This document shows, piece by piece, positions 11,637-50,268 of a stretch of 64,000 nt of DNA; position 1 is the first letter of the stretch; every line of letters begins with the position of its first letter. Origin of the DNA: Acanthamoeba castellanii str. Neff. Its lineage: Eukaryota > Discosea > Longamoebia > Acanthamoebidae. The notes under the pieces were generated by a model. It worked only from the letters and a program-made list of their open reading frames with translations, ran no database searches and was not told the origin of the DNA. Made by a program: the position numbers and the translations under genes. The stretch is taken from positions 832,082 to 896,081 of the forward strand of contig NW_004457554.1 of NCBI RefSeq assembly GCF_000313135.1, written 5' to 3'.

Positions 11637-13239
11637 GTGTTGTGGTGCGCGTTAGCAAAAAAAGGTCGCGCATGGGTTCGAACGTTTTGAGGCTCTAGGT
11701 ACGGACCTGGTTGATCAACCAGCCGGGCTCCTCCCGCGCGATCAAGATGGCGGTGAGCCAGCCCAGTGCTCGTTCCCAGCGCATCTTACTCCATTTCTCG
11801 GCGCCATGTCCTGGTTGCCGATCAGACACAGCGTGTGGTGTGTGCGTGGTGCGTGCGTGTGCGGTGGTGCACAAGGGAGCACGTACGGGCGACGACGTGC
11901 CCGACCTCGTGGCCAAGGACGGTGGCGAGGCCGTATTCGTCTTGCGTGACGCTCAGTATCCCTGTGAAAACGCACACCTTGCCGCCGGGCAGCACGAACG
12001 CGTTCATCTCGTCCGACTGAATGACCTGTGTGCGTGTGCGGTTGTGCGTGTGCGGTTGTGCTACCGTCAGAGAAAAAGAAGAAGAAGAAGAACGAGGGCT
12101 TACCAAGAACTCCCAGTGCAGGCCCTGGAGATCGGTTTGCTCTATGATCCTGCGTCCAATCCTCTTGACTGCGAGAACCAACTGCGTTGCGACAAGTCTT
12201 AGACCAACGCGATATCAACATTGTTCTTTCTTGGTCGTGCGTCTGCCGTGTGTCGTGTCGTGTCGTGTCGTGTCGTGTCGTGTCGTGTCGTGTCGTGTCG
12301 CGTCGCGTCGCGTCGCGTCGCGTACTTCGTGGTTCTCGGGGAGGATTTGGTCTTTGTACTGTTGTTTGAGGAGGTGGAATGAGGCGAGACCCATTCTTTG
12401 CTCCTCCTCCCGCGACACGTCCATCATTCGCCTACGACCTGCCAAGACACACACCCTGCATCAATTCCTGCGTCGCGTGCGGTGTGCGCGTCGCGTGTCG
12501 TGTCGTGTTGTTGTGTGGTGCGTGTCTTGTGTGCTCGATTGAAGCAGTACCGCTGTGGGGCACGATGTCCTGGTAGTACTGCCAGTACCCGTACCCGCCC
12601 AGCGGGATCGCCAGCAGGAGGCCCACGGCGAACGCCAGCCGCTTGGGTCGCTTCTTCACTTCCTTTTGCACCTGCGACCAAAACGTGCGCATCTTCACTG
12701 CACAAGGCCACGTTACATTATTATTTAAATTTACATTTATTATTTATATATTTATATTTATTGTCTTATGCACTATTATTAATTTAATGAATATGATCCA
12801 AAATAAAAATTAAAGGATTAATGGAATGCATGTAAGAATGGAGGTGGGACGAACGATGATGGAACTTGTGGAAGTAGCCGCTCTTGTGGCGTCGTTGGAT
12901 CAGTGCGCTGGGTAGCGTTCCATGCGAGCCCACAAACGTACAGTTCAAAATCGCTCCCCGATTCGCGATTTTGTGGTTGGCGGCTCGCAACCCGGGCAAT
13001 GCAGCAGTGGGGAGAGCTGGCAAGGTCCGCCGCGTGGTGGCGAGGATGAAGCGTTTGGTGATGCTTTGTTGAGACATCGTGGCAGTGGCCGGTGGTGGTG
13101 CATTTGAGGTAATGCAGCCACGTAGCAGGGAGGACACCAGAGGCCGCAAGGCCAGCGTTGCCGTGGAGGAAGAGTGGCGGTGACCCAGCCCCAGCGTGGG
13201 TCCCACAGCAGCCCTCTGGGCACCCTTCAAGCGGTGCAT
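11092..13239 (-). CDS. OMA1: OMA1-like mitochondrial zinc metallopeptidase (M48)
   Basis: Read on the minus strand, the mature part begins VKMRTFWSQVQKEVKKRPKR with a membrane segment (LAFAVGLLLAIPLGGYGYW). The zinc site is VLGHEVGHVVAR (HExxH), preceded by DEMNAFVLPGGKVCVFTGIL. The third ligand lies in KFEHEADFIG, after EKWSKMRWERALGWLTAIL. The end is KYLSTHPPNADRIVLLKRWM. This is the order in OMA1, which cleaves OPA1 and DELE1 in the inner mitochondrial membrane in animals. A 5' exon (13239-12850) encodes an Arg-rich leader; the internal ATG at 13077 (MSQQSITKRFILATTRR) is an alternative start and looks more like a presequence. Its introns carry long GT, CA and TGTCG repeats. Confidence 0.88.
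11599..11635. repeat. (TG)n microsatellite in OMA1 intron
   Basis: A nearly pure TG dinucleotide run lies in an intron of the OMA1 gene, so the sense strand reads CA. Confidence 0.9.
12249..12322. repeat. (TGTCG)n and (CGTCG)n pentamer array in OMA1 intron
   Basis: About ten TGTCG units are followed by about four CGTCG variants. The array sits in an intron and is long enough to vary in copy number. Confidence 0.9.
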
Positions 13240-13375: not shown

Positions 13376-16300
13376 ATGAGGCGCGGCTCGGGCTCATCTT
13401 TGGCGCGCGCACAAAGCGGCATTCCCACGGGCTCCAGTGGCGACGTACGTACCTCTTCAACGGCAATCAATCCCCGTACGACACTTTTTTTTTTCTGATT
13501 TTGTTGGTTTGTTGGTGTAGGGCACGGCTACGTTAGGGGGCGGCGCTGGCAGCTTCAGCTTCAACCCGAGTGGTGCACCCTCGTCGGCCACGGCCACTGC
13601 CTTCCCCTCCTTCTCCTTCTCCAGCACGCCACCCTCTTCTTCTTCTTCTGCTCTCCCCGCCTTTTCCTTTGCCCCGTCAGCGTCAGCCTCGCAGGCTTCT
13701 CCTTCATCACCGGCGCCGCCGCCCGCGTCGTCGTTCACGTTCGTCGGTCACAACCCCCAGCCCCAGCCTCATGAGGCCCAGCCGCAGCAGCGAGCAGCGC
13801 AGATCGGGCCGCCTTCGCCCTACGCGCACGCGGCGCCTGGCGGCGGCGTCGGGCCATCATCGCCCGCAGCAGCGGCCGGCGCGGAGCAACCGTGGGAGCC
13901 CACCTTCAAGCGCGAGCACAAGGACGAGTCGCCCGTCGGCAACCTCCTCCGCAGCACCACCGCGTGCGCCCTCCCAATCACTCTTCTTCTACATCACCAT
14001 CAACTGACATTGATGATGGTGATGTTGGTGATGATGGTGATGATCATCAGGATTCTCAACAAGATCGGTCCGCGCAACTTTGACTCGATGGTGCGCGAGC
14101 TGGCCGAACATGTGACCGGGCGCTGCGTGCACGACGGCAGACAGGGCGTGTGCGGGAACGGCATCGCGGGCGTGCAGCAGCTGGAGATGTTCAGCCGCGT
14201 CATCTTCGAGAAGGCCCTCGAGGAGCCCAACTTCAGCGACGTCTACGCCCACGTCTGCCGCGCCATCTCGCCCCTCTGCCCACGCTTCGACGACGCCACC
14301 GTAACTGCCCTACTGCCTTGTTTTCTCATCATTACTGGCTGCTATCATCTGACGCACACGCACCACCGCACACGCACACGCACCACCGCACACGCACACG
14401 CACAGTTTGAGTTCTTTATGAGCTCCATGTGCGATGGTGAGGTGGTTGATTACCTGGAGTTTGAGGATGATGAGGAGGACACGGACGACGAAGGCGACGA
14501 CGGCGACGACGACGGCGAAGCGGCGGCCCAGCTCAAGCAGCATATCCTGGAGCGCAAGGCCGAGTTCCGGCGGCGGCTGCTGGGCAACCTAAAGTTCGCG
14601 TCGGAGCTGTACAACTGCGGCATGCTGTCGACCGGCGACCTGCTCGACATGGTCGACTACGTCGTCGACCACGCCGAGCTGTGCTGCTACTTCATGCGCC
14701 ACGCCGGCCGCATGCTCGACTTCCGCACCGACGACGCCGTCGAGCACGGCCGAGTCCAGCCGCCTTTCTACGCATCGCGCGAGGTACTCCGTGTCGCAGC
14801 CGCAAATCGATTGTGTCAACTACTGCAGTATTGACGTGTGTGTGTCGTGCGTGTCGTGTGTCGTGTGTCGTGTGTCGTGTGTGTGTGCGCTGTAGGAAGC
14901 GAATGATGCCAAGCCGTACATAGACAGTATCTACGCGCGGCTCGCAAAGAACCTGGAAGACCACAAGTTGCCCACTCGCATCAGTTTCATGATCCAGGAC
15001 CTGCTGGAGGAGCGCAACAACCACTGGGAGAAGGTGCCGCCCAGTGCGCCGCAGCCGGCCGCCGAAGACCCGCCCCGCAGGCCTCCCATCACCGTGCGCC
15101 GTTCCCTCGCCGGCAAGCCGCCAGGCCCCGGCGCCGCCACTTCTCCGCCCACATCGCGCGCTGCCCACGCCGCAGCCGCAGCCGCACCGGCCTCGCCAGC
15201 TCGCCCCGCCAACGTACCGACCCAGCCGCAGTCGCCGCAGTCTCCTGCGCAGGCGAGAGCGCCCGCTGCTGCGACTACGACGGCGACGATGGAGTCCAAG
15301 CGCGAGCAGGTGCGGCTCATCGCCGGCTCGATCGTGCGGTCCCTTAAGGAGGCGCTGCAGTGGGCCGACGACAACGAGCGGCGGATGGACGCGCAGCCGG
15401 GCATGCGCACCGTGGCGCGGGTGGAGGAGCTCAACCGCGCGTTCCTCATCCGGGTGAGCGAGGCCCTCGAGCGCATGCAGCGCCAGCACGGCGAGGTGCC
15501 CTTCCTGCAGAACCTGATCGCCGTCATCGCCGCCTACGCGCGGGACACGGCCAAGACCGGCGGCGAGCGCGGACCCTACCAGCCGGCCAACATCGCGCGG
15601 CTCAAGGGCACGCTGGCCGACCGGGTGGCCCAGGTCGAGCAGGTCATCAACCAGTCCTCGAGCGCCCAACCGGCGGGAGGTGCCACGTCAGCACCACGAC
15701 CCGCGGCGGCTGCTGCCCCGGCGGCGGCGGGAGCGACGATTGGTCATCAGCAGCCTCCGCCGCTGGCGGCGGCGAGTGCGCTCGCGCGGCCGCCGGGGCC
15801 GGCGACCGGTGCGATGGGCGCGGGACCGCCGCGGGAGGTGCAGCGAGCGCCTGCACACGCGCCAGCGCCGGCGCCCGCAGAGCTGCCGCCCGGCTGGGTC
15901 GACCCCGATCTGCACCAATTGACCGCAGGCCAGCCACTCGACAGGGTCTCTCTTGCCTCTCTCCGTGTTCCGTCGCGGTTGCACGCTGATCCGCGTCGTG
16001 CGTGTCGTGTCGTGTCGTGTGGCGCAGCTGCTCCGCCGATGGGAGGAGGAGCTGGTCGCCAAAGCTGCCGATCTCGATCGCCGCGCGAAGGCGGTGGCCT
16101 CCTTCGACAGGGTCTGCGTGGGGCTCGATCGCTCGGTACACGCACGCGCCGCTCTTTTCCATTTCGCGTTCTTTTGAAAGTGAGCCTCACCTCTCGCGCC
16201 GCCATACCTCTCCTCTTTCTCGTGGCGTGCGCGGCACACACCCCAGATGGCGGAACTGGTGACCAACATCGACCAAGTGACCATCGCCCAGACCGAGGTC

Positions 16301-16904
16301 GACCAGGGACTTGACCTCATCCTACGAGTACGCTCCCTCGCCACGACTGAATGCGGGACGTCGCACGCTAATCACGTTTCAATGTGCGTGTGCGTGGGCG
16401 CGTGCGGTGGTGCGTGTGCGTGTGCGGTGACGTGTGCCGTGTGCCGTGTGCAGCACCAAGAGAGCTTTTACGCGATCCTATGCGACCTGCAGGAGGAGGC
16501 GGAGGCCACGCTCACCGAGGGCGACGCCGACCGCCAGCGAGAGCGGAGCTACGACTCGGCGAAGGAGGTGGACAAGGGACTCCACGACGTGGAGCTCACA
16601 CTCAAGGGCCTGGTCGAGGACTTCAACAGCCAGCTCGTGCAACGACGGACCACCCAGGAGCAAAAGGTGACGCGTCGTCCCTGCTCACTCCAACCTCACC
16701 CAAGCCCCACCACCCATCTTAACGTGTGTGGTGTCGTTATGCGTGTGTCGTATGCGTGTGTGCGGTACACAGGTGGTGGAGTTGGAGGAGATCCTGAACA
16801 ACAGCCTGCACGCTCTGCAGTGGATGTCCGCCACCGGCAGTTGCCTGGAGCGAAAGCTGCGACGCCTCCAACGAGTCGAGACCGACCCAACCTACGCCGC
16901 GTAG
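13376..16904 (+). CDS. Nup62-like nucleoporin with embedded eIF4G-type MIF4G domain
   Basis: Nine exons join with perfect phase (13376-13444, 13521-13963, 14051-14300, 14406-14783, 14896-15945, 16028-16111, 16247-16327, 16454-16666, 16773-16904) into 899 residues. Residues 24-95 are a Ser/Ala/Pro-rich region with FSF/FTF motifs (GSFSFNPSG, FPSFSFSST, AFSFAPSA). Residues about 150-425 are a MIF4G HEAT domain: ILNKIGPRNFDSMVREL, then VIFEKALEEPNFSDVYAHVC, later RRLLGNLKFASELYNCGML, and LPTRISFMIQDLLEERNNHW. A Pro/Ala linker, a helical block from residue 512 and a second linker follow. Residues about 715-890 match the Nup62/Nsp1 C-terminal coiled coil: LLRRWEEELVAKAADLDRRA, VDQGLDLILRHQESF, LNNSLHALQWM. 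Nup62 forms the central channel of the nuclear pore; MIF4G in eIF4G binds eIF4A. I know of no family with both. The OMA1 gene is divergent 136 bases upstream. Confidence 0.85.
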
Positions 16905-16971: not shown

Positions 16972-19415
16972 CTAGCTGGGGATTTCGCGTTCGAAGATGC
17001 CTACAATGGCGTCAACGTCCACGCGGACGTCGTTGCCGCCGGAGGCGGGGTAGGGGAGGAGGTGGTAGTTGTGGTCGAGCATCACGGCCTGCTGCCAGAT
17101 GATGAGGTTGGGCGTCGAGTACCGCTGGTAGGGCATGAACTCGATCGTCAGCGTGCGGCTCGGCGTGAACATCAGATTGTAAAACGACCCGCCGTGCGGG
17201 CCTAGTGCGACACAGCCATTACGTGAGTATGACCCACGCACCACACACGCACACGCACACACCCACACACACACACACCGCACACACCGCACAGGTACCG
17301 ATCAAAACTTTGGCGCGGTTGAAGAAGGCGATGGTGGCTTGGAGGGTGGGGTAGTTGGCGTGATTGAACACGACGAGCTCCAGCTTGGCCTGGCCAGCGG
17401 CCTCGCGCTCGCGGTTCCTCCGCGCGATGAAGGCCTCGAGCCCCTCGATCAGCTGGTCCTCGTTGAGCACCGACCGGCCGTGGTTGAAGGTCTGCCCACT
17501 CCGCTTGCCGCGGCCCAGGTAGACGATGACGTTGCGGTCGGCGAAGGGCAGCTCGCGGTAGCCGAAGCGCTCCCGCATCTTCTTCCACAGGTACGGGTGG
17601 AACGGCGGCGACTGGCACGACTGATACCAGAGCTTGCCCCTGTTCGTCAACGAATCAGACGTGTGTGTAGCGCGTGCGTGTGTGCGTGTGTGCGTGTGTT
17701 GTGTGTGTCGTGTGTGTGTTGAGGGGTGGGTACTGGAAGATGGTCTCGGGGTTGAACACGACGAGTCGGTCGGCGGGGAGGAGGTACTCCCAGATCTTCT
17801 GTACGACGGGGAACTTGGGCAGGTTGTAGTCCACGAGCACGGTGATGTTGGGATCGTCCTGCAGGCCCTCCCACGCCTGCATCAGCCGCGGCAGCACGCC
17901 GTCGATCAAGTGCTGGAAGCTCCAGCCCTATGCCCACATATCTTCGTGTCAGTCACACACGACACACGACGACACACATGACGGCACACACGGCACGACA
18001 CGAAGGCACACGACACAACACGGCACAGGATGATGGGCAACCTGGACGACGATCATGGGGGCCAGTTTGTCCCATTCGTGCGGAGTCTTGCCGAAGAATG
18101 CCGGATACTCTTTCAGGTAGGTGTCGTACTTTGTGCTCCACGAACAGCCGTGGTACTGCCCGAAGGACCCTTTGGCGCGAACCACATACACCACACACCA
18201 CACACCACACACCACACACCACACACGCACACCACACAACACACGCACACCACACACACCACACACACCACACACACACGCGACAGTGAAGACGAGTCGA
18301 AAACGCCGAGCGAGCGCGAACAGTCAAAGGCGTACCATTGGCCAACACGAGATTCCTGCCCGTCACGTACTTGTCGGTCCAGAACACGAGTACCTGCGTG
18401 TGCGTGTGTGCGTGTGCGGTTAGCGCGTGCGGTGTGATTGGGGGGGGGTGGCACTGTACGTCGTCCGAGGAGGTGTGCGAGTCGAGCAGTGGGCACAGCA
18501 CGCCGGGTGGCAGCGGTCGCTCGAAGCACCGGAGGGAGGCGTTGACGAACTCCTTGACCACGTCCAGCGACACGAACCACTCCCGATCCTGCGCCGCAGT
18601 CAGCACTACCGCACACGCACACGCACACGCACACGCACACGCACACGCACACGCACACGCACACGCAAGCAGACACACGAGAGCGAAGAAGAGCGGAGCA
18701 CGACGAAGAGCCGTTGCGGGGGAGGAGGAGGGGTTGACCTGGGGCGAGACGAAGTGGGGCATGGGGAGGACGAAGGGCGGGAAGCGGAGCTGCGTTTCCT
18801 CGAGCACGCGCTCGTCGGGAATGCAGTCCTGCGCCCACGGGCCTGCCGTCACAAACTTACCCTACACCGCCCAACACGCATAGCACACACGACACACACA
18901 CGACACACGACACACACGACACACACCGCACATCAGGGCCATGCGAGCGAGTGCCGCGCGCGTGTGGCGTGAGTGGAGAAAGGTACGTGTTGGCACTTGG
19001 CCGCGACGCGAGGTGCCCAGTCCAGGCTGGGCGGAGGCCGGTTGCCGTACGGGTGCGTTTGCACTGCGGGCGTGGCGGGCTCGGTGGGCGGTGGTGGCAA
19101 AGAAGAAGAAGAAGACGGGGGAGAGGAGGGCAAAGTAAAAGCGGCAGAGAGGGATGAGGGAGGTGGTGGGGCTGAAGATGCCGCGGCATCGGTCTGAGTC
19201 TGCTGTGATGAACGAGAAGAGTGGGAAGATGAAGATGAAGATGAAGACGGAGGGGCCGGCGAAAGATCGGAGGAGGCCGCGGGATGATCGGTGGCGCTGA
19301 AGGAGGAAAGCAGGAGCGAGTTGCCGAGCAAGAAGGTCGTGCATACCAGCACGAAGCTCACAACGGCGAGCAGCACCAGGTTGCGGGTCGTGGCGCGTCC
19401 TCGTACACGCCGCAT
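16972..19415 (-). CDS. GT61-family glycosyltransferase, type II membrane protein
   Basis: The N-terminus is cytosolic Arg-rich followed by a signal anchor (NLVLLAVVSFVLVCTTFLLG) and a long Ser/Pro stem, as in Golgi enzymes. The lumenal part includes VLVFWTDKYVTGRNLVLANG, IWEYLLPADRLVVFNPETIF and NVIVYLGRGKRSGQTFNHGR. The C-terminal catalytic motif is HANYPTLQATIAFFNRAKVL, then GPHGGSFYNLMFTPSRT and LTIEFMPYQRYS. This is the DUF563/GT61 signature shared by EGF O-GlcNAc transferase (EOGT) and plant xylosyltransferases, so transfer of a sugar in the ER or Golgi is inferred; the donor sugar is not readable. The introns are rich in CA and GTGTGCG repeats, and some exon limits between 17940 and 18700 are uncertain. 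Confidence 0.8.
18181..18284. repeat. (ACCACAC)n repeat in GT61 intron
   Basis: This is an imperfect CA-rich tandem repeat of about 100 bases within an intron of the minus-strand glycosyltransferase. Confidence 0.85.
18611..18667. repeat. (CACACG)n microsatellite in GT61 intron
   Basis: About nine near-perfect CACACG hexamers lie in another intron of the same gene. Confidence 0.9.
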
Positions 19416-29816: not shown

Positions 29817-31144
29817 ATGACGATGTCACCTGCAAGCAAGCTGTTCTTCGTGGTGGCGCTGGGCCTCGCTCTCGCAGCCACGGCGGCCATCGCCGACGGC
29901 AAGATGAGGAACGACGGAGGACCGTGCAAGGGCGGCTACTGGCCCGACGGCAAGGGCTGCTGTCCTGAGCTCATCAATGGCAAGGCCTACTACCGCGACG
30001 GCAACAAGTGCTACCCCAAGGACGTCGGCTGCGGCGTCTACTACGCTGACGGCAACGGGTACCGCCTCACTGCACACACCACACATTCAGCACAGCATCC
30101 ACAACCTACCTTAGGGGCTGATTGTGACACCTGGTCAACACACCAAACAGGTTCTACCCGGACGAGAAGGGCAACTACCTGAAGGCCGGCGAGTCGTGCT
30201 CGTGGGAGCGCAAGTGCCACGAGCGCTGCATCCGCCCCGACGACCACAAGACCACCACGACCACGGAGGAGTGCCCCAAGGAGACCACCACGACCAAGAG
30301 GCACACCACCACGACCACGGAGGAGTGCCCCAAGGAGACCACCACCACCAAGAAGCGCACCACCACCACGACCGAGGATTGCCCCAAGGAGACCACCACG
30401 ACCGAGAGGCGCACCACCACCCCCAAGCGCACCACGACCACGACCGAGGATTGCCCCAAGCACACCACGACGACTGAGGAGTGCCCCCAGGAGACCACCA
30501 CCACCAAGAGGGAGACCACGACGACCGAGAGGCGCACCACCACCCCCAAGCACACTACCACGACTGAGGAGTGCCCCAAGGAGACCACCACCAAGAGGCA
30601 CACCACCACGGAGGAATGCCCCAAGGAGACTACCACGACCAAGAAGCACTACACCACGTCGACCACGGAGGAGTGCCCCAAGGAGACCACCACCACCAAG
30701 AAGCACACCACCACGACCGAGGATTGCCCCAAGCACACCACCACGACGACGGAGGAGTGCCCCAAGGAGACCACCACGACCAAGAAGCGCACCACGACGA
30801 CGACCGAGGAGTGCCCCAAGGAGACCACCACCTCCAAGAAGCACACCACCACCACGACGGAGGAGTGCCGCAAGACCACGACCGACAAGCCGTGCGAGGA
30901 CGACAAGAACAAGAAGTGCCCCGGCGGCCAGTGGAAGGACGGCCACGGGTGCTGCCCGCGCAAGGTCGGCCGCGAGTGGCACTTCCGCGACGCCCAGGGC
31001 TGCTACCCGATCGAGCTCGACTGCGGCGTGTTCTACGCCGACGCGCAGGGCTGTTATCCGGACGAGCACGGCAAGTACCTCAAGGCCGGCGAGTGCTGCC
31101 CCGACCACCGCAAGTGCTGTCCCGAGTGCGATGGCGCCTACTAG
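29817..31144 (+). CDS. Leo-type secreted Cys-rich lectin with Thr/Lys/His spacer
   Basis: A signal peptide (KLFFVVALGLALAATAAIADG) starts a secreted protein. The first 8-Cys domain has GPCKGGYWPDGKGCCPELIN, RDGNKCYPKDVGCGVYYADG, a short intron, then YPDEKGNYLKAGESCSWE and KCHERC. A spacer of about 220 residues (30231-30880) repeats TTTTEECPKE with TTTKKHTT-type units. A second domain follows: CPGGQWKDGHGCCPRKVG, DAQGCYPIELDCGVFYAD, then ECCPDHRKCCPEC. This is the published layout of Leo lectins of the Acanthamoeba cyst wall, which bind cellulose, in the subset with a Thr-, Lys- and His-rich spacer. Binding here is inferred. The second domain has about 11 Cys, so it is not a simple copy. Likely regulated during encystment. 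Confidence 0.82.
30231..30880 (+). repeat. Degenerate Thr-rich coding repeat
   Basis: About twelve units of T(3-5)E(E/D)CP(K/Q)(E/H) followed by TTTKK or similar are encoded. Codons ACC/ACG alternate, so the DNA repeat is GC-rich and its antisense strand is also open for long stretches. Confidence 0.85.
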
Positions 31145-46601: not shown

Positions 46602-49600
46602 ATGGCGAGCGGCGTCGGGGAAAAAGCGCGGTCTGCCTTGCGCCAGAGTGTGCCTGTGGTGGAGGCCCAGCTGGAGCGGTACCTCGCGCGCACGTTCGGC
46701 ATCGACAGGCGCACGACCGACCTCTCGCAGGCCCACGTGCGACGGCTGGCGCGTCTTCTGCGCCACAGCGAGGAGGGTGGCGATCGCCAGCGGCCGCCGA
46801 GCGACGACGAGGACTTTGCGCTTCAGCAGTTCTGGCGACTCGAGTCGCAGCAGCTCCAGCAGCACAAGCGATCGACGACCACAACCAAGCGGCAGGCGCG
46901 TCTGCTCTGCTTCCTGGGCGACATCGTCCAGCGGCAGCGCAGTACCGACGACGACGATGGCGACGACGATGACGGCGTCCGCAGCCTGATCAGAGCCGTG
47001 ATCGGCGGTAGCCGCGCGTGGCAGTACCTCAAGGTGGCGGTGGCCTACGCGCTGGTGGCGGCGTGCGTGATGCGCGCGCTGACGCTGTGGGGCCGCGGCA
47101 AGATGGAGCTCTTCATGCACGACCTGCGCGTCTACTTCCTCGAGCGCCAGGTCCTGGACCTGCCCGGAGTCGGCGCGCGGGCCGTCGACGCGCTCCTCCT
47201 CCTGCTGGCGGCCATCTTCCTCATCCTGCTCCTCCTCGTCTGCTGCTACTTTGTTCGCACCGACAACGAAGATGACGATGACGATGACGACGATGTAGAG
47301 GAAGAGGAAGACGACAACGAGCTGGTTGGGCGTCACTCGATGATCGGAGCCGAGCAGCGGCGCGCATCAGCCACTACGAAGGCGGCGGCGGCGGCGGCGG
47401 TGGAAGAGGAGGACACGAAGCCGCTGGAGGAGCGGCTGATGGAGCGCATGGAGGACATGTTCGAGGCGGAGATGCGCAAGGTCGAGGAGAAGCTCCGGCG
47501 CAAGAAGGAGGCGGCGGCGGCGAAGAGAAAGAAGCGCGAGGAAGAGAAGCGGGAGCGGGAAAGGGAGAGGCAGCTCGCAGCGGAGCACGAGGCCAAGAAA
47601 ACGAAGAAGAAGGAGGAGGAAGACGAAGACGATGCGATGCGGGAGCGCGAGGAGTTGATGAAGAAGGAGGCGGAGGCGGAGGAGCAGGAGCGAGAGCGTA
47701 AGCGCGAAGCGGAGCAACAACGGAAAGGGAACAGGAGGAAATGAGGGAAAAGGAGGAGCAAGAACGAAAGCGACAGCTCGAGGAGGAACAGCGTCGCATC
47801 CAACAGGAGGAGGAAGAGGAAAAAGAGCGAAAGCGACGGATCAAAGCGCATCGTCGGGCAGAGGAAGCGGAGCGGCAGCGGCAGCTCGACGCACAGCTCC
47901 GAGCGGCGGAAGAGGCGGCGGCCGAAGAGGAAAGGAGACGTGCGGAGGAGGAAGAGCTCAGGGCCGCCGATGAAGCCGAGCGGCAGCGGCAGGAGGCGGA
48001 AGCGCGCCGAAAAGCCGAAGAAGAGGAGCGTCAGAGAAAAGAAGACGAGCAGCGAAAGAGAGAAGAAGAAGAGGAGGAGCGCCAGAGAAAAGAAGTCGAG
48101 CAGCGAAAGAGAGAAGAGGAGGAGGAGGAGGAAAAGCGACGGAGGAAGGCCGAGGAGGAAGCAGCAGAGCGAGAGCGACAGATCGTGACACAGCGCGAAG
48201 CGGAGGAGGAAGAGGAGAAGCGAAGGGCCAAGGCTGAGGCGGAGGCCCAGCAACGAGCCGACGAGGAGAAGAAGAAGAAAGAGGAGGAGGAGGAGGAGGA
48301 AAGAGGAGACGGGAAGAGGCGGAGAAGGCCGAGAAGGCCGAGAAGGAGGCGGAAGAGGAGCGGAAGCGGCAGATCGAGGCGATGCAGCGAAGAACCGACG
48401 AGGAAGCGCTAGCGGAAGCGGAGCGGAAGGCGAACGAAGACAGGGAGGCCGAAGAGCGGCGTCGGGCCGATGAGGAGAAGGAGCGGCAGCGGCTGATCGA
48501 AGTGGAGCGCCGGGCCGACGAAGAGGAAGAACGAAAGCGACGAGAGGAGGCGGAAAACAGAGCGCAGGCCGAGGAAGAGAGAGCGGCGGCGGAAGAGGAG
48601 GGGCGACGGCAAAGGGCAAAGGAAGAGGAGGAGCACAAACAGAGCGAAGAGGCGGCGAGACGGGCGGCCGAGGAGGCGGAGGAGCAACGAAGGCTCAAGG
48701 AGGCCGCCGAGCGCGCGACCGAGGAGGAGGAAGAGCGAATGCGAAGAGAAGACGAAGCGAAGCGGGCGGAAGAGGAGGCCGAACGGCAAAGGGCAGAGTC
48801 GGAAGAAGAAGAAGAAGAAGAACGGAGACGGGTTCAACGTGAAGAGGAAGAGAATGAAGAGCGGCTTCGAGCCGAAGAGCGAAGAAAGGCGGAAGAGGAG
48901 GAGCGACTGCGCGCAGAGGAAGAGCGAAGAGCGGAGGAAGAGCGAAGACGCGAGGAGCAGCGACAGGAGGAAGAGGAGCAGCAGCGAAGAGCCGAAGAGG
49001 AGGAAGCGCTCAAGCTCAAGCTGAAGGAGCAGGAGGAAGAGGAGGCCGAACGCGCGAGGGCCGCGGCAGATGAAGAGCGAAGGCGACGCGAGCGAGAGGA
49101 AAGTGAGAGACAGGCGGCGGAGGAAGAGGAGAGACGCAGAGCCGAGGAGGCGCGGCAACGAGCCGACGAGGAGCTGGCAAAGGCGGCGGAAGAGAAGCGG
49201 CTGGCGGCCGAGGAACAAGCACGACAAAGGGCTGAGGAGGAGGAGGAGAAGGAGGAGGAACAGCGGAGGCGAGCGGCCGAAGACGAAGAACGACGACAAC
49301 GCGAGGCCGAAGAGGCCGCAGAGCAGAGGAAAGCGGAAGAGCAGGAGCGCAGAGAGCGGGAGGAGAAAGAGGCGCAGGCGAGAGAAGAGGAAGAGCGACG
49401 ACTGGAGGAAGAGCGAAAGCGACAACAGCAGGACGACGACGACGAGGAGGACGAGATCGAACCGCAAAGCCTCTTCTCCGAAGAGAATGGCACGGAGGGC
49501 GAAGAAGAGGAAGAAGAGGGTGAAGAGGAGGAGGAGGAAGACGACGAAGAAGGCGAAGAGGAAGAGGAACAAAATAGCGAAGACGAAGCCGAAGCGGGAC

Positions 49601-50268
49601 CAAATAGCGAAGAGGGCGAGGAGGAGGAGGAGGAGTTGCTTGAGGTCGACGCGGATGAGTTCGAGGGCGTGCGCATCTACATGGAAGAGGAGATCCAGCA
49701 GATGAGCCCCGAAGACCTCTCCTTCGCCGACATGGAGGAGAACGAAGCCGACAACGACCGCGAGCTCAGCATCGACGGGAGCGAATACGACAGCGACTTC
49801 GACAGCAGCCGGGGCTCGAGCCGCGCGCAGAGCGACGAGGAGGATGACGCGCTCGACTGGGGCGACGCGGACGACGCCGGTCGGGCTGCGCGCGATTGGA
49901 GCGCCCCGCTGTCGGCCTACGGCCTGCCCCGCAGCGGGCTTCGCATGTCGCAGGGTCCCACGATCCTCATCAGCGGCCGTAGCCTCGAAGAAAGCGAAAA
50001 TGTCGACAAAGGCGGCGAACCGGCCTTGAAGGAAAAGAGCGAAGAGGACGAGGAGAAGGAGAGGAGGCGGCAGGAGCGGAGGAGGGCGCGGCGGAAGGCG
50101 AGGGAGAAGGAGAAGCGGCGCCTGGAGCGCTTGAAGAAGGCCGGCCTGCTCTCGCCCCAGTCCTCGAACCGCCTGTCGCGACGTTCTCGCTCCACGTCAA
50201 CACCGCCCCCGCTGGCCACCGCGACACGACGCAGATCGCGATCGTCTTCCTGCAACCAGCCGGTGTGA
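46602..50268 (+). CDS. Giant Glu/Arg/Lys coiled-coil membrane protein, two apparent frameshifts
   Basis: From the ATG at 46602 (MASGVGEKARSALRQSVP) the protein has two membrane segments (LKVAVAYALVAACVMRALTL and LLLLLAAIFLILLLLVCCYF), an acidic run, then a very long coiled coil of E-E-R/K-R-A units. The first frame stops at about 47744, the coil continues one frame back from about 47730 to 48310, and again one frame back to the stop at 50268. Each junction behaves as if one base is missing. Joined, it is about 1,220 residues. The C-terminus has an acidic stretch, EFEGVRIYMEEEIQQMSPED, SYDSDFDSS-type Ser/Asp repeats and a basic tail. No slippery site or intron fits, so assembly error or gene decay are the likely reasons. 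A structural, possibly endomembrane tether role is a guess. Confidence 0.65.

Follow-up and report, generated by a model that had tools for sequence, protein, structure and literature searches.

The locus carries a single gene that joins an eIF4G-type MIF4G domain to a Nup62/Nsp1-type coiled coil. The gene occupies positions 13376-16904 of the forward strand in the window, the 64,000-nucleotide stretch of Acanthamoeba castellanii str. Neff DNA analysed here. Nine exons join in matching phase, as the earlier note had proposed, and encode 907 residues with no stop in frame. The eight introns are 76-126 bases long, and all have GT donors and AG acceptors. Third codon positions have a GC content of 0.74-0.92 in every exon, against 0.41-0.65 GC in the introns. 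The high intron density accords with the 6.2 introns per gene given for Acanthamoeba in the accessible text of PMC4053784. The actophorin exon of the genome likewise fits this organism, with 84 of 84 residues identical to PDB 1ahq, the Acanthamoeba castellanii protein. From the N to the C terminus, the product comprises a region with FxF motifs, the MIF4G domain, a linker, a helical middle segment, a second linker, and the coil (Table 1). Exons 2 and 3 share one frame, which is open from 13521 to 14834 even when unspliced, and Pfam recognizes MIF4G in this stretch without splicing (E 1.9e-11).

Table 1. Exons, selected introns, and protein regions of the fusion gene (positions in the window)
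Feature	Position	Strand	Basis and remarks
Exon 1	13376..13444	+	Gene model; contains the model's sole in-frame ATG before residue 184; outside P0001
Exon 2	13521..13963	+	N-terminus rich in FxF and seemingly disordered; start of MIF4G
Stretch with four FxF motifs	13551..13742	+	Motif scan; FSFN, FSFS, FSFA, FTFV at residues 35, 54, 71, 95
MIF4G domain, residues 169-423, exons 2-5	13956..15024	+	Pfam PF02854; eIF4G1 in PDB
Intron 2, phase 2, just before ILNK	13964..14050	+	Matches eIF4G-type genes on C79, C161, C189 in position and phase
Exon 3	14051..14300	+	Gene model; in P0001 from residue 184 onward
Exon 4	14406..14783	+	Gene model and P0001; carries acidic insert of MIF4G
Exon 5	14896..15945	+	Gene model and P0001; 1,050 bases: MIF4G end, linker, helical middle segment, linker, coil start
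Helical middle segment, residues 513-636	15292..15663	+	Helices only in low-confidence model
Nup62/Nsp1-type coil, residues 725-900, exons 5-9	15928..16880	+	Pfam PF05064; human Nup62 in PDB
Intron 5	15946..16027	+	82 bases
Exon 6	16028..16135	+	Gene model and P0001 junctions
Intron 6, phase 0	16136..16246	+	Aligned position and phase as in canonical Nup62 (column 59)
Exon 7	16247..16327	+	Gene model and P0001 junctions
Exon 8	16454..16666	+	Gene model and P0001 junctions
Intron 8, phase 0	16667..16772	+	Aligned position and phase as in canonical Nup62 (column 164)
Exon 9 and stop codon	16773..16904	+	Gene model and P0001 junctions

The two domains are present in one transcript. A search of 5.8 billion proteins returned as its top match P0001, a public intron-free protein of 728 aa whose source label, 'lgn', presumably denotes assembled public sequencing runs. 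P0001 aligns with residues 184-907 of the fusion protein and is identical in 722 of 728 columns; the remaining columns hold two substitutions and an indel of a 4-residue repeat. At each of the six exon 3-9 junctions, the surrounding 20 residues are unchanged. Because its frame runs intron-free across these six junctions, P0001 goes back to spliced RNA, either directly or through a copy, and because it crosses all of them, both domains reside in one mRNA. The earlier note had argued that an uninterrupted long exon followed by a short intron left no room for two genes. The coordinates of this exon and of the intron were reproduced, and P0001 spans exons 3-9 as one protein with both domains. Two genes or a gene-model artefact are thereby ruled out for exons 3-9. 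Only one locus in the genome was found with a 604-base probe. P0001 begins at M184, and the exon 1-2 and exon 2-3 junctions lie outside it. Exon 1 and the start codon are taken from the gene model alone, and the exon 2-3 junction is supported independently of cDNA because its intron position is common to eIF4G-type genes. That one chimeric spliced protein joins the MIF4G domain and the Nup62-type coil is near certain.

In the spliced product, Pfam finds at E ≤ 1 only two families, MIF4G and Nsp1_C, both above their curated cut-offs, which is the outcome expected from the earlier note. The match to MIF4G (PF02854) has an E value of 2.2e-16 and a score of 60.7 bits (cut-off 30.8). It covers positions 4-203 of the 203-position profile, nearly its whole length; the earlier note had called the domain complete. 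The PDB sequence search agrees with the proposed eIF4G type: six of the seven chains matched at E ≤ 1 are of this type, including eIF4G1, eIF4GII, eIF4G2/DAP5, and yeast eIF4G. The best match is eIF4G1 (8huj, 1.7e-19), and the seventh chain is Ams1 at 0.14. CBP80, UPF2, and CWC22 are not among the nearest PDB relatives at this threshold.

The domain has diverged deeply. Its identity to human eIF4G1 and to two of the genome's own eIF4G-type genes is about 30-32%; among themselves, these three share 45-53%. A recent copy of the amoeba's own eIF4G is ruled out, as the best own matches outside the locus reach 50% over 34 residues and weaker. Three eIF4G sequences agree at 78 positions; the fusion keeps 40 of these and has changed at 38. 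ILNK(I), F, IFEKA, EPNFS, and RR.LGN..F..EL are retained, and the LLNRCQ stretch is lost. L729, L732, and F737, three positions needed for eIF4A binding in human eIF4G1, correspond to L, I, and F in the fusion protein. In a seven-sequence MIF4G tree, the fusion groups outside the eIF4G sequences (support 0.915) with a CWC22-like MIF4G and that of C207 (L035:2386-3438), another divergent eIF4G-type gene with a Pfam E value of 3.3e-14; all three are long branches, and the eIF4G-type assignment is not based on this small tree.

The intron just before ILNK is common to the fusion and eIF4G-type genes (Table 1), as established by alignment for C79 and C161 and read from the sequence for C189. The chance of one such match with one gene is about 0.018. 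A second MIF4G intron lies one codon from that of C79, both in phase 0, and C207 may also possess the intron before ILNK. From the PDB matches and the shared intron, the eIF4G type is the best label for this domain. Unlike eIF4G, the fusion protein contains neither an MA3 nor a W2 domain (no Pfam match at E ≤ 1), domains that some members of the eIF4G family also lack. The eIF4E-binding motif YxxxxL-phi has no match in the protein.

The C-terminal region was likewise correctly assigned as a Nup62/Nsp1 coil. Pfam Nsp1_C (PF05064) matches residues 725-816 with an E value of 1.2e-9 (38.5 bits against a cut-off of 24.1; positions 15-106 of 114 in the profile). Nup62/Nsp1 or an unnamed nuclear pore protein accounts for 12 of the 13 PDB chains matched at E ≤ 1, and the thirteenth is a Rho kinase at a chance-level 0.63. 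The best match is human Nup62 (5ijn, 1.6e-12), with an alignment that extends beyond the Pfam domain to about residue 898. The coil keeps FDR, RERSY, and EILNNSLHALQWM, and this retention, together with matches restricted to Nup62/Nsp1 chains, suggests the same coil packing.

The protein contains no FG dipeptide, in its first 165 residues or elsewhere, and lacks the N-terminal FG-repeat domain typical of Nup62/Nsp1. The FG-type motifs of the earlier note therefore stand only as four FxF motifs, and the wording was generous. The contexts of these motifs resemble those in canonical Nup62. Shuffling of the 165 residues reached the FxF count in 26 of 20000 trials and the F[STN]F count in 0 of 20000, the motif having been picked post hoc. 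Two linkers rich in proline, alanine, and serine (76% PASGTQ) flank the middle segment, for which no relatives were found in Pfam (E ≤ 1) or the PDB (E ≤ 10), and only itself in its own genome. AlphaFold, given P0001 with three fish Nup62s, yielded a model of unusable quality (pLDDT 47.7, pTM 0.27).

The same genome contains a canonical Nup62. A genome-wide search for the Nsp1_C family identified a match at C90:191982-192323, on the same contig as the fusion gene and ~650 kb away, as well as one sub-threshold coiled coil on C214. The fusion gene's coil, divided among several exons, itself escaped this search, so further Nup62 paralogs are possible. The canonical protein has an FSFG-rich N-terminus with 9 FG and 11 FxF motifs in 361 residues (incomplete, its first exon not being placed), matches Nsp1_C at 1.6e-26, and shows no MIF4G in its frame. 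Its existence rules out the fusion as the genome's sole Nup62. The earlier description of one nucleoporin thus holds insofar as a single protein bears a Nup62-type coil, but this protein is not the ordinary Nup62 of the genome.

The coils of the two proteins share 25% identity. The canonical coil matches human Nup62 at 6.7e-35, far more strongly than the fusion coil does. The fusion coil keeps 31 of the 72 positions at which the canonical protein and three fish Nup62s all agree, against 17 of 120 other columns. Two of its introns coincide exactly in position and phase with introns of the canonical gene (Table 1); the chance of two or more such coincidences is about 4e-4. The coil therefore shares common descent with the Nup62 of the same genome. 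The introns shared with both parent families argue for an ancient fusion of an eIF4G-type piece with a Nup62-type one. Relative to the Nup62/Nsp1 family, it preserves the C-terminal coil, the N-terminal FxF motifs, and two intron positions, and it differs in the inserted MIF4G domain, the extra helical segment, and the missing FG dipeptides.

The distribution of the fusion was examined in the protein database. The whole-protein search, in which the 7993 candidates with the most shared words were scored, returned four proteins: P0001 plus three from fish in which Nsp1_C occurs alone. With the MIF4G part as query, P0001 was the sole return among 2779 candidates. The canonical Nup62 coil retrieved nothing among 942 candidates, although the whole-protein search had found fish Nup62s; the silence of the database thus says little on other amoebae. 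To our knowledge, no single protein joins an eIF4G MIF4G domain to a pore-anchoring coil. No paper naming both MIF4G and Nup62 was found in a literature search whose reach mostly excluded subscription papers. Among the papers examined that contain both 'MIF4G domain' and 'nucleoporin', the accessible text describes no such chimeric protein. An unremarked prediction of this domain pair may exist, for instance in public domain-architecture tables.

Several known systems resemble parts of this arrangement. Gle1 resembles MIF4G, and in Gle1-Dbp5 a HEAT/MIF4G activator acts on the export helicase. Unlike Gle1, the fusion protein has no match to the GLE1 domain (PF07817) at E ≤ 1, and a separate Gle1 gene is present on contig C103. 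This gene, together with a Nup88-like match in the same genome, indicates that the ordinary cytoplasmic export platform is likely present, so a pore-anchored MIF4G would add to the usual system. Nup54 gave no match in an exon-by-exon genome search, a search whose silence proves little. According to the accessible text of the respective papers, MIF4G domains are a main class of helicase regulators, with eIF4G clamping eIF4A (PMC11498004), and Nup62/Nsp1 is part of the Nup88/Nup214 platform that recruits Dbp5/DDX19 with Gle1 (PMC11825100). The accessible text also describes the MIF4G domain of THOC2 as binding and stimulating UAP56 (PMC7744094), a case in which a MIF4G-type domain acts on a DEAD-box ATPase in mRNA export (PMC7744094, PMC12823420). 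In that of PMC8699206, CTIF, an eIF4G-like MIF4G scaffold, is tied to DDX19 near the nucleus. The fusion would similarly place such a scaffold near the pore exit, but the tether of CTIF is a protein contact with DDX19, whereas that of the fusion would be a covalent Nup62 coil.

These features suggest a reading in which the fusion is a diverged second Nup62 whose coil sits at the pore and whose MIF4G domain holds a DEAD-box ATPase for export or first translation. We assign this reading as a whole a probability of roughly 0.4. The protein would be a second Nup62 copy with hardly any FG character left and with a MIF4G domain between the FxF N-terminus and the coil. At the pore, the coil would assemble with partner coils, those of Nup54/Nup58 within the channel or those of Nup88/Nup214 on the cytoplasmic side. 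Flexible linkers would carry the MIF4G HEAT domain, which would hold and regulate a DEAD-box ATPase of the eIF4A type or Dbp5/DDX19. mRNPs leaving the pore would be remodelled or passed to the first round of translation. Remodelling or a pioneer round of translation would then begin on the pore itself, beside Gle1-Dbp5 rather than in its place. The parts of this reading differ in strength. Location at the pore is somewhat more probable than not, and binding of a DEAD-box ATPase by the MIF4G domain is slightly favoured; a role in mRNA export or first translation is proposed. The 40 of 78 retained positions and the missing LLNRCQ lean against easy helicase binding, and the absence of FG dipeptides, the diverged coil, the tree placement outside the eIF4G group, and the poor structure model count against the reading as a whole.

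The best-placed alternative, which we regard as unlikely, is that the fusion acts off the pore as a cytosolic mRNP or translation factor, its Nup62-derived coil now used solely for trimerisation or for pairing with a second coil. The lack of FG dipeptides would fit such a protein, as would a coil with fewer than half of its 72 invariant positions kept, and the canonical Nup62 is available for the pore work. Yet the coil matches only Nup62/Nsp1-type chains, bar one chance-level match, and the kept FDR, RERSY, and EILNNSLHALQWM suggest the same packing. Somewhat less probable still, the protein may reside at the pore with a MIF4G domain that no longer binds a DEAD-box ATPase and instead forms a HEAT scaffold for RNA or another protein. 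The changes at eIF4G-invariant positions, including the loss of LLNRCQ, and the long branch of the domain in the tree are consistent with this possibility; the full-length match above the curated cut-off and the conserved first helix ILNKI..F and RR.LGN..F..EL argue against it. The gene is very unlikely to be a relic, expressed yet decaying without a maintained function: both halves are divergent and the genome holds a single copy, but all nine exons are open, their third-position GC stands well above the GC of the introns, P0001 differs by so few changes, and neither half contains a stop or frameshift. An artefact of two genes or of chimeric assembly can practically be dismissed; exons 1 and 2 are without transcript support, but P0001 carries both domains and runs across every coil junction and the final MIF4G junction, and the 1,050-base exon, found once in the assembly, spans the joint.

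The cytoplasmic face of the pore is where the work of nucleoporins meets that of translation factors. Should the diverged second Nup62 reside at the pore, it would be a natural tether, and tagging this one gene would allow a test of whether export is coupled directly to helicase loading or to first translation. A Nup62 duplicate freed from its FG function and given a new domain would also offer a route by which pores come to differ between lineages. We only tentatively extend this to an amoeba lineage with an eIF4G-type helicase platform hard-wired into the nuclear pore, in which some pores, or one face of them, would be equipped with a Nup62 variant that supplies a DEAD-box cofactor of its own.

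The surroundings of the gene contain several other features. Downstream, a convergent neighbour on the minus strand (17219-17881) has its 3' end near the fusion gene's stop codon and shows a weak match to Glycosyltransferase 61 (23.1 bits, below the cut-off of 27). Upstream, a minus-strand open frame at 12432-12743 has no Pfam match, and we take it to resemble the N-terminus of PEX3. A Thr-rich cluster of tandem repeats with periods of 54-141 bases lies at 30251-30874. The strand is strongly purine-rich at 48000-49600 (AT skew 0.77 and GC skew 0.37 over 48001-50000) and contains one 51-base tandem repeat at 48017-48130. In translation, this segment resembles an extended coiled coil, or else a charged single alpha helix, rich in Glu, Arg, and Ala, with an acidic tail behind it.
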